Origin: an uncultured Bacilli bacterium
GTDB lineage: Bacteria; Bacillota_I; Bacilli_A; RF39; UBA660
Assembly (NCBI GenBank): GCA_944329205.1
Contig: CALVHY010000029.1
Coordinates: 1-41,119, forward strand
Direction: 5' to 3'
Length of the DNA: 41,119 nucleotides
A program made the position numbers and the translations under genes. The first letter of the stretch is position 1. Every line of letters starts with the position of its first letter. The notes under the pieces were generated by a model, which saw nothing but the letters and a program-made list of their open reading frames with translations, ran no database searches and was not told the origin of the DNA. This document shows, one piece after another, positions 1 to 16,747 of the stretch.

Positions 1-417
1 ATTATTATTGAAGTAGATAAAGAAATATCTTCCGAACATGACTTAGAATTAAGTATTCTTGCTAATCTTGAGTTTTTCTTTAAACAACTTGGAGATGGTT
101 TTACCTATGTTGGGCATCAATATAAACTAAGTGATGGAAAGAAAAATTACTATATTGATATGCTTTTGTTTAATTTTAAAATAAACTCGTTTGTAGTTGT
201 AGAACTAAAATTGCGTCCTTTAAAAAAAGAAGATAAAGCCCAAATGGAATACTATATGAAATTAGTTGATGAGCAATTTAAAGGACCTCATCATAACAAA
301 ACAATAGGTATTATCATTACCAAAGAAAGTGATAAACTAATTGCCAATTTCATTAAAAGTAAAGAAATTATACCACTTACATATAAACTTGAACCAAAGG
401 AGACATCATATGAATGA
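1..417 (+). CDS. DUF1016/YhcG-family nuclease, C-terminal part (copy 1, cut by window edge)
   Basis: The reading frame is open from base 1 and ends at TGA 415-417, so the N-terminal part lies outside the window. The visible 138 residues match the C-terminal PD-(D/E)XK nuclease domain of the DUF1016 (YhcG) family: an acidic residue in YYIDMLLFNF followed by the VVVELK strand, the usual D...ExK core. The domain is known from defence islands and near type I restriction systems; its biochemical role is not settled. Bases 1-393 are about 93% identical by hand count to 920-1312 in the next gene, with only about 6 differences in bases 61-300. The stop overlaps the next gene's start by 8 nt, so the two copies are a tandem pair. 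Confidence 0.85.
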   Translation: MIIEVDKEISSEHDLELSILANLEFFFKQLGDGFTYVGHQYKLSDGKKNYYIDMLLFNFKINSFVVVELKLRPLKKEDKAQMEYYMKLVDEQFKGPHHNKTIGIIITKESDKLIANFIKSKEIIPLTYKLEPKETSYE

Positions 418-1324
418 AGAAACCTATTATCAAGAAATAGAACATTTAATCAAAAAGAATGAAATAAGTAAAAAAGCAAGAAGATTAGAAGAAAATAATG
501 ATACGGTAACTACTTATTGGCATGTAGGACAATTAATTGTTGAAGCTCAAGGTGGAGAAAAACATGCCAAATATGGTGATGAATTAATTAAGAAATGGTC
601 CGTCTGACTTACAGAACAATATGGAAAAGGATATGATACCACTAATTTACGTAAATTTCGTCAATTTTATTTATGTTTTTCAAAACGCGCTACACTGTGG
701 CGCACTTTGAGCTGGAGTCATTATAAAAGAATATTACCTATAAAAGATGAGAATAAACGGAATTATTATATTAATATATGTATTAAAAACCATTTATCAG
801 AAAGAGAACTAACAAAAGAAATAAAATCTAATTCCTATGAAAGACTAATAAATAAACCAAAGAAAATAGATATTATTTCTCCTCAAACATATTCGATCAC
901 GACTAACATGAAAAACCCAATTATAATTGAAGCGGATAAAGAAATAACCTCAGAACAAGACTTAGAGTTAAGCATACTCGCTAATCTTGAGTTTTTCTTT
1001 AAACAACTTGGAGATGGTTTTACCTATGTTGGTCATCAAAATAAACTAAGTGATGGGAAGAAAAATTACTATATTGATATGCTTTTGTTTAATTTTAAAA
1101 CAAACTCGTTTGTAGTTGTAGAACTAAAATTTCGTCCTTTAAAAAAAGAAGATAAAGCCCAAATGGAATACTATATGAAATTAGTTGATGAGCAATTTAA
1201 AGAACCTCATCATAACAAAACTATTGGTATCATTATCACCAAAGAAAGTGATAAACTAATTGCCAATTTCATTAAAAGTGAAGAAATCATACCTTTAACT
1301 TATAAACTAGAAAAAACAATATAA
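410..1324 (+). pseudogene. DUF1016/YhcG-family nuclease, copy 2, interrupted by TGA
   Basis: The ATG at 410 has an AAGGAG ribosome-binding site about 8 nt upstream. The frame runs through the DUF1016 N-terminal domain (TYWHVGQLIVEAQGG) to a TGA at 605-607, then continues in the same frame (LTEQYGKGYDTTNLRKFRQF, then LSWSHYKRIL) to the nuclease domain and a TAA at 1322-1324. The residues on both sides of the TGA belong to one continuous domain, so this is a nonsense change (for example CGA or AGA to TGA) and not a frameshift. TGA is a stop elsewhere in the window, so recoding is unlikely. A separate 3' fragment could only start inside the domain. Possible sources are genuine decay, a sequencing error, or population variation. 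Read through, it would be about 304 residues. Confidence 0.85.
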
Positions 1325-15430: not shown

Positions 15431-16747
15431 ATGAAAATAGAGACTTTAAAAAAGAATCATTTAACAAGAAATATTATTATAGGAGTAATCGTAATAGCGT
15501 TAATTACAACATTAATATTAAATTTTACAAGAGCAAAATATCGGGTAACTGAATCTTTTCCTTTAATTAATGGAACAATAACATTTAATAATGCTGATTT
15601 AAATGTTATTGCTATGTATCAAGAAAATGATTTAGGGGAATATGAAAGTATAAATACAGTACCTGTTAGTGGTTACACCTTAAATGAGACGGAAAGCTAC
15701 TGTGAAGTTAATGGTGAAAAAGATAGCACAATTCCTATGAATTACGAAAATGAAAAAGTATATATTGGTATAAATACAAAAGGCACTAAATGTTATTTGT
15801 ATTTTGACATTCAAGTGTTAGCAAGCGATACAATACTAGCAGGTAAGACAATTCAGGAAAGAACTGACTTTAGCACAACATTAACATCAAACACTAATGG
15901 CACAATATACCAAGCACCGGATGGGGATGGAACAAGTTATTACTTTGCAGGAGCCAATACCGAAAATTGGCTTTCCTTTGCGGGATTCTATTGGCGGATC
16001 ATCAGGATTAATGGTGATGGAACAGTTAGAATCATCTATAATGGCACCAGTACAAGTACCACAGGAACAAGTACCCAGTTAGCTAGTACAAGTGCATTCA
16101 ATAGTACGCGTACTGATAATATGTATGTAGGATATATGTATACCAGTGGAGAGGTACATGGCTTAGGAAGAAGTAGTACCATCAAAGGAAGAGTAGATGA
16201 ATGGTACCAAGATAATATAGCAACTAGTACAGACTACACCAACAATATATCAACAACCACTGGTTTCTGTGGAGATCGAACATCAACTACGAGTTCAAGC
16301 GGAGCACCAAATGATACAGGAGGAACAGGAAGAACCGACACATATTATGGAGCAAGATATAGGTTGTATACAAATAAGACACCAACATATGATTGCCCTG
16401 ATCCTGATAACGATCTATATACCGTCGATGGCGCAGGAATCGGAAATGAAGCGTTAACGTATCCAGTCGGATTAATCACAGCCGATGAAGTATCGTACGC
16501 AGGTGGTGTAAGGGGTTCAAATAATACAAGTTATTACCTATATACGAACAGTAATTATTGGACAATGTCTCCGTATCTCTTTGATGCGGCGTACAACGAC
16601 GCTTACGTGTTCTATGTGGGTTCGAATGGCAACCTGTACAACAACTACGTGAATCCCACGTACGGGGTGCGCCCAGTATTAAATCTGAAGGCTGATGTGC
16701 AGTTAACGGGCAGTGGCAGTGCCTCTGATCCGTTTGCTGTAAATTAA
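15431..16747 (+). CDS. Membrane-anchored surface protein with C-type-lectin-like end, module A
   Basis: 438 residues. A basic N-terminus is followed by one membrane segment (about 14-34, RNIIIGVIVIALITTLILNF) and RAKYR, then an outside N-terminal domain (about 35-135) with two Cys. The C-terminal domain (about 140-438) includes NTENWLSFAGFYWRIIRING, Ser/Thr/Gly-rich repeats, GFCGDRT and TYDCPDPDNDLY (possible disulfide), ALTYPVGLITADEVSYAGG, and an end WTMSPY...GVRPVLNLKADVQLTG. This end looks like the C-type lectin/formylglycine-enzyme fold used by DGR target proteins. The first and middle parts are strongly similar to the gene at 40323. A GAGGTAG precedes ATG 15431. Probably a surface adhesin or receptor; the ligand is unknown. 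Confidence 0.85.
   Translation: MKIETLKKNHLTRNIIIGVIVIALITTLILNFTRAKYRVTESFPLINGTITFNNADLNVIAMYQENDLGEYESINTVPVSGYTLNETESYCEVNGEKDSTIPMNYENEKVYIGINTKGTKCYLYFDIQVLASDTILAGKTIQERTDFSTTLTSNTNGTIYQAPDGDGTSYYFAGANTENWLSFAGFYWRIIRINGDGTVRIIYNGTSTSTTGTSTQLASTSAFNSTRTDNMYVGYMYTSGEVHGLGRSSTIKGRVDEWYQDNIATSTDYTNNISTTTGFCGDRTSTTSSSGAPNDTGGTGRTDTYYGARYRLYTNKTPTYDCPDPDNDLYTVDGAGIGNEALTYPVGLITADEVSYAGGVRGSNNTSYYLYTNSNYWTMSPYLFDAAYNDAYVFYVGSNGNLYNNYVNPTYGVRPVLNLKADVQLTGSGSASDPFAVN
16571..16687 (+). other. Candidate DGR-type variable region
   Basis: Residues 381-419 are encoded by sequence unlike the rest of the gene: 51 of 96 bases in codons 383-414 are G or C (53%), while the window is near 30%. Codons shift to TAC, AAC, GAC, GTG, GCG and CGC. 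Most NNC/NNT codons are ones that A-only substitution could make from AAC/AAT, as in DGR variable regions. The segment ends in a GC-rich stretch (GGGGTGCGCCC) where a DGR initiation site would lie. No template repeat or reverse transcriptase is in the window. Confidence 0.5.

Follow-up and report, generated by a model that had tools for sequence, protein, structure and literature searches.

Diversity-generating retroelements (DGRs) are usually pictured as a single cassette in which one template repeat (TR) lies beside its reverse transcriptase (RT). In the DGR of Bordetella phage BPP-1, a single TR is located between avd and brt, and there is a single target (PMC12875486). Diversification of remote targets in trans is known from Treponema denticola, cyanobacteria and Thiohalocapsa PB-PSB1 (PMC4891356, PMC7517822, PMC10907252), while DGRs with more than one TR per system are described in the MetaCSST report, whose headline case, Pseudomonas costantinii, has six TRs and 91 pairs with few A-to-N substitutions (PMC6642488). 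The DNA analyzed here (the window, 41,119 nucleotides of contig CALVHY010000029.1) belongs to an uncultured gut member of the Bacilli related to Caccenecus, with a genome of 1.07 Mb in 72 contigs that is 93% complete. We are confident that positions 16568-16675 of the window are the variable region (VR) of a DGR target, and equally so that one RT operon on another contig, C49, serves the whole genome while its templates are separate small non-coding RNA (ncRNA) genes. Like BPP-1, this system has a DGR-type RT, a bAvd protein, TR/VR pairs with adenine-specific changes, a GC-rich 3' end common to TR and VR, and a structured RNA 3' of the TR; unlike BPP-1, it has dozens of targets, a third, MutS_I-like gene, and numerous TR genes that stand alone, without linkage to the RT. 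The relevant features of the window are the following:

15431 to 16747, forward strand: DGR target gene for a 438-residue, membrane-anchored surface protein with a C-terminal DUF6273-type domain.
15461 to 15535, forward strand: N-terminal hydrophobic helix (residues 11-35), the membrane anchor predicted from sequence, with the same helix in the structure model.
16535 to 16690, forward strand: profile match to DUF6273 (PF19789, above cut-off), residues 369-420.
16568 to 16675, forward strand: VR, at the C-terminal end of its gene, from homology to the template repeats on contigs C50 and C7 and from the codon-position signature against the sibling VR on contig C64.
16664 to 16675, forward strand: 3' VR end resembling an initiation of mutagenic homing (IMH) site, GGGGTGCGCCCA, identical in VR and TR, with diverging bases after it (GTA in the VR, ATA in the TR).

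An original prediction, made from the window alone, had proposed a DGR variable region at 16571-16687, and homology to the TRs, adenine-specific differences and the codon-position signature all bear it out, although the edges drawn from template-repeat homology are those given above. The GC shift reported there is real but amounts to 50% rather than 53%, compared to 35% in the part of the gene that precedes it and 31% in the window, and the GC-rich end is present as GGGGTGCGCCC. The 251-bp region around the VR has 37 further matches in its own genome, where we could read 32 paralogous VRs, almost all of which end related proteins at the C-terminus; an IMH-like end of the GTGCGNCCAGT type is kept in 18 of the 32, mostly as the exact 15-mer GGGGTGCGCCCAGTA, and together with the number of matches this places the pattern beyond chance. 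Between the window VR and its closest sibling, on C64, 20 differences in 123 nt fall 12, 8 and 0 times at codon positions 1, 2 and 3, whereas in the 300 nt upstream the corresponding figures are 2, 5 and 19. In the 18 VRs with the end, third positions are likewise the least variable within the VR (0.13), while beyond it they are the most variable (0.40), a pattern missing from the other 14, which are probably retired targets.

Two of the matches in the genome lie outside genes, at C50:12352-12460 and C7:5847-5936. Both are intergenic versions of the VR rich in asparagine codons (AAC), with common flanks that the target genes lack, and judged from these sequence features they are template repeats. 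When seven VRs of equal length were compared to the C50 template, mismatches were found at 12-21 of its 32 adenines and at 1-4 of the 70 positions that are not adenine (p from 2e-6 to 5e-11 in Fisher tests; the best example has 21/32 against 3/70, p=5e-11), with adenines changed to T, G and C. Counted over all mismatches, those at template adenines (e.g. 12/13, 16/18 and 21/24) make up at least the 75% expected of a DGR. The window VR differs from the C50 template, which is not its cognate, at 12 adenines and eight other positions (12/20 at A), with two codon gaps. Since the window and C64 VRs share a frame, TTTNATGCGNCGNNCAACNNCGCTNNCGTGTTC, that a pattern search located nowhere else in the assembly, a third template, missing from the assembly, would stand behind both. 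A gene for a collagen-like protein with G-P-T/G-A-T repeats (L038:2-688) was also seen on C7, close to the repeat there (TR2).

The original prediction had also placed the template and the RT elsewhere in the genome and expected several scattered targets, which is what we see: the operon is on C49, the TR cassettes are on C50 and C7, and 32 VRs could be read, among which adenine-specific differences were seen. Module B of the window, named there as a probable target, gained no support, as no second VR was found in the window. The genome encodes two RTs, of which one, on C54 (L009/L012), is a group II intron RT/maturase and the other, on C49, is DGR-type. The latter has 377 residues and carries the motifs IGNMTSQ and RYMDD, which recur in its relatives (IGNxTSQ, YMDD); its closest solved structure is 8ub7 (E=2e-28), presumably the BPP-1 DGR RT, and on motifs and best solved relative it would belong to the DGR clade. 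Upstream of it are genes for a bAvd protein and for a 135-residue protein with a match to MutS domain I (MutS_I-like), and MutS-like genes have been counted among the accessory genes of DGRs. The bAvd protein matched PF22296 above cut-off and the PHROG family 'Avd protein of DGR' (phrog_3206), scored below the cut-off of the NCBIfam Avd model, and had no match in a sequence search of the PDB.

Although the genome search proposed with the prediction did yield both a DGR RT and near-repeats that differ at adenines, the template does not adjoin the RT. Neither an A-masked scan nor a later scan found a TR on C49, where the flanks measure 4.4 and 12 kb, and none was found by TR-RNA model or repeat scan at 22 RT loci that we term type A (flanks reaching 10 kb on contigs long enough for it), so that the canonical repeat, no more than 1 kb away from the RT, is lacking at C49 and at the other type-A loci alike; in five of the 22, a target gene lies 1-4 kb from the RT. 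Among more distant RTs, locus L134 has a linked cassette about 0.9 kb upstream. At another distant locus, L130 (CASEIJ010000058.1), we observed, at about 1.6-2.2 kb from the RT, two VRs and two TR copies that translate identically. L130 may be a transitional form between systems with one linked TR and those with several dispersed TRs, and a linked-TR ancestor of the dispersed system is plausible.

The templates recur as a defined RNA gene across the genus, which we surveyed in fragmented metagenome-assembled genomes (MAGs), one per species; these relatives are gut MAGs that carry labels such as uncultured Bacilli or Tenericutes and include Candidatus Caccenecus avistercoris. Searching with the TR 3' flank alone detected cassettes in 33 of 36 genomes, often as tandem arrays, with up to 25 in one genome (G013), followed by 19 in G035, 15 in G016, 13 in G004, 12 in G033 and 11 in G015. 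With a model of the 3' domain, ten more cassettes came to light in a single further genus of the same family, spread over two genomes, and the remainder of the 146 genomes sampled from the order gave no hit. Most cassettes have TATAAT about 6 nt before GG(T/C)TAATCT, and the one on C50 (TR1) has a TTGAAA-17-TATAAT promoter and an intrinsic terminator. A four-helix structure could be drawn over 55 aligned cassettes, with 94.9% of cells paired and 116 double changes, compared to 37+/-4 in shuffled alignments and a maximum of 28 in slid ones. Its first helix encloses the TR by pairing the two RNA ends with each other (5' GGTTAATCT with 3' AGATTAATCC), and its second begins where the TR has just closed with GTGCGCCCA. 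The cassette had no significant match in Rfam, and its structured 3' domain is likely the counterpart of the BPP-1 spacer. The IMH-like end common to TR and VR occurs in species-specific versions: in G001 it was seen in all ten VRs that were read, and templates and VRs share the G001-specific GGTGTGCGTCCA, while in G002 and G021, which have targets and in which neither RT nor cassette was found, none of the ten VRs read had it. Genes for YhcG/DUF1016 nucleases of the PDDEXK type (e.g. window 1-1318, L038:1019-1792, L187 and L193) were also seen beside or between cassettes (16/60 cassette loci, 2/60 target loci and 1/26 RT loci, counts that are not independent as some loci overlap), with arrays alternating cassette, nuclease and cassette. 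Because the left end of the window (1-1318) is such a gene, a cassette may lie beyond it.

These results bear on whether we are looking at a conventional DGR, with the RT-linked TR missing from the assembly and the scattered cassettes being decayed copies. The incompleteness of the assembly, the missing template of the window VR, and the linked repeats of distant RTs such as L134 and L130 would be in keeping with such a scenario, which we nonetheless regard as very improbable: no TR lies in the C49 flanks or at the 22 type-A loci, VRs match the scattered cassettes of their own genome, and the cassettes keep their promoter and, through compensatory change, their base pairing, and hence are under selection.

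How templates and targets pair was followed where several of each could be compared, targets being as numerous as 75 in G035, 56 in G004, 40 in G015, 35 in G013 and 31 in G001. In G004 and G015, a template from the VR's own genome gave a closer fit than all foreign templates tried for 32 of 37 VRs, and a clear single pair is that of VR L240 with template L227:1450 (15 mismatches at A and one elsewhere). Both genomes have templates spanning just the 3' half of the VR, and in one G004 VR the 5' 60 nt derive from one template (7 A and 2 non-A mismatches) and the 3' 57 nt from a neighbouring shorter one (6 A and 0 non-A). Across the group, the gain from allowing mosaics of own versus foreign templates was 11.5 versus 7.6 in G004 and 10.8 versus 10.8 in G015, and mosaicism thus rests on single cases, the gain from own templates not being clearly above that from foreign ones. 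With little better than even confidence, we favor genome-wide mutagenesis by one RT operon that draws on a library of template RNAs, whose free-standing genes differ in sequence and length and of which the short ones would rewrite only the 3' half of the VR, the targets being combinatorial mosaics of mutagenized templates. The presence of many donors, their tandem arrangement and the mosaicism of VRs are also what one would expect from gene conversion out of silent cassettes, in the manner of antigenic variation and with no reverse transcription; this is highly improbable, however, given that the differences concentrate at template adenines, that the short, non-coding donors each bring a promoter and an RNA fold, and that a DGR RT and Avd are present. 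Least probable of all is an ordinary paralogue family under diversifying selection which, in spite of the size of this surface-protein family and the missing A-bias of some members, would not account for third positions that are conserved inside the VRs of the active class and not outside them, nor for non-coding templates matched adenine-specifically.

Several observations do weigh against a trans-acting library of templates as proposed here. The window VR has no cognate TR in the assembly, where the pattern search matched the window and C64 alone, and about 14 of the 32 VRs have lost the IMH-like end or a clear A-bias. Eight genomes have cassettes (in one case a weak match) and no RT that we could find, some of them being more than 90% complete, and activity is read from the assembled sequence of a single strain. 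At the threshold used for DGR RTs in the genus (E<=1e-40), the cassette-bearing genomes with no hit were G005, G008, G010, G011, G014, G020 and G029. RT genes with several in-frame stops were also noted in cassette-bearing genomes (L129 in G009, L121 in G006 and L122 in G026). Since cassettes are nearly universal in the genus, their co-occurrence with the RT is uninformative.

If the system is active, each template ncRNA gene would be transcribed from its sigma-70 promoter through the TR into the structured 3' domain, to which RT and Avd might bind in trans. The RT would then be primed and copy the TR from the GTGCGCCCA end, placing random bases opposite A, and the resulting complementary DNA (cDNA) would home to and replace the matching VR in any paralogue that retains the IMH-like end. 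Several templates of different sequence and length would in this way rewrite different subsets of targets, with partial copying yielding mosaic VRs, and the products would be surface proteins with randomized C-terminal loops, possibly for ligand binding.

The target gene of the window lies between a gene for a helix-turn-helix (HTH) regulator and one for a penicillin-binding protein. A model of the whole protein was poor (predicted local distance difference test, pLDDT, 62), and its fold search is not meaningful. The C-terminal 310 residues, modelled with 60 homologues as input, reached a pLDDT of 96 and had significant matches to phage models alone, mostly of DUF6273 (E 4e-5); against the PDB, this model had no entry below E 0.001 and no significant C-type lectin match. 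DUF6273 has been termed C-lectin-like after a DALI comparison (PMC10743442), and a C-type-lectin fold is likely for this modelled domain. The DGR targets of gut phages in that study resemble ours in their VR-bearing DUF6273 domain, described as C-type-lectin-like, and differ in that ours is chromosomal, membrane-anchored and present in tens of copies. A VR was also seen in a shorter protein of 180 residues (L033, C55:1077-1171) with no usual N-terminal anchor, a second target scaffold.

Compared to the remote-target DGRs, the system described here is alike in that one system reaches unlinked target genes in trans, but those DGRs keep the TR with the RT in complete loci, and in ours it is the template that occurs in many scattered and differing copies. 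The MetaCSST systems are alike in having more than one TR, while free-standing TR genes with a promoter and an RNA fold are not described in the passages of that report consulted. Searches restricted to open-access papers, with subscription papers and preprints outside their scope, turned up no account of TR genes that are free-standing and dispersed. A large survey demanded that a repeat lie no farther than 1 kb from the RT (PMC8144416), and the dispersed-template layout would consequently be invisible to it, as such systems would be overlooked by any survey that requires a repeat beside the RT. The covarying alignment of 55 RNAs provides a handle on which parts of the RNA recruit RT-Avd and prime cDNA synthesis, and the layout suggests a way to build multi-template targeting. 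For these gut bacteria, the template would be a structured RNA gene that is portable and works in trans, with up to 25 copies and up to 75 targets in genomes of about 1-1.5 Mb.
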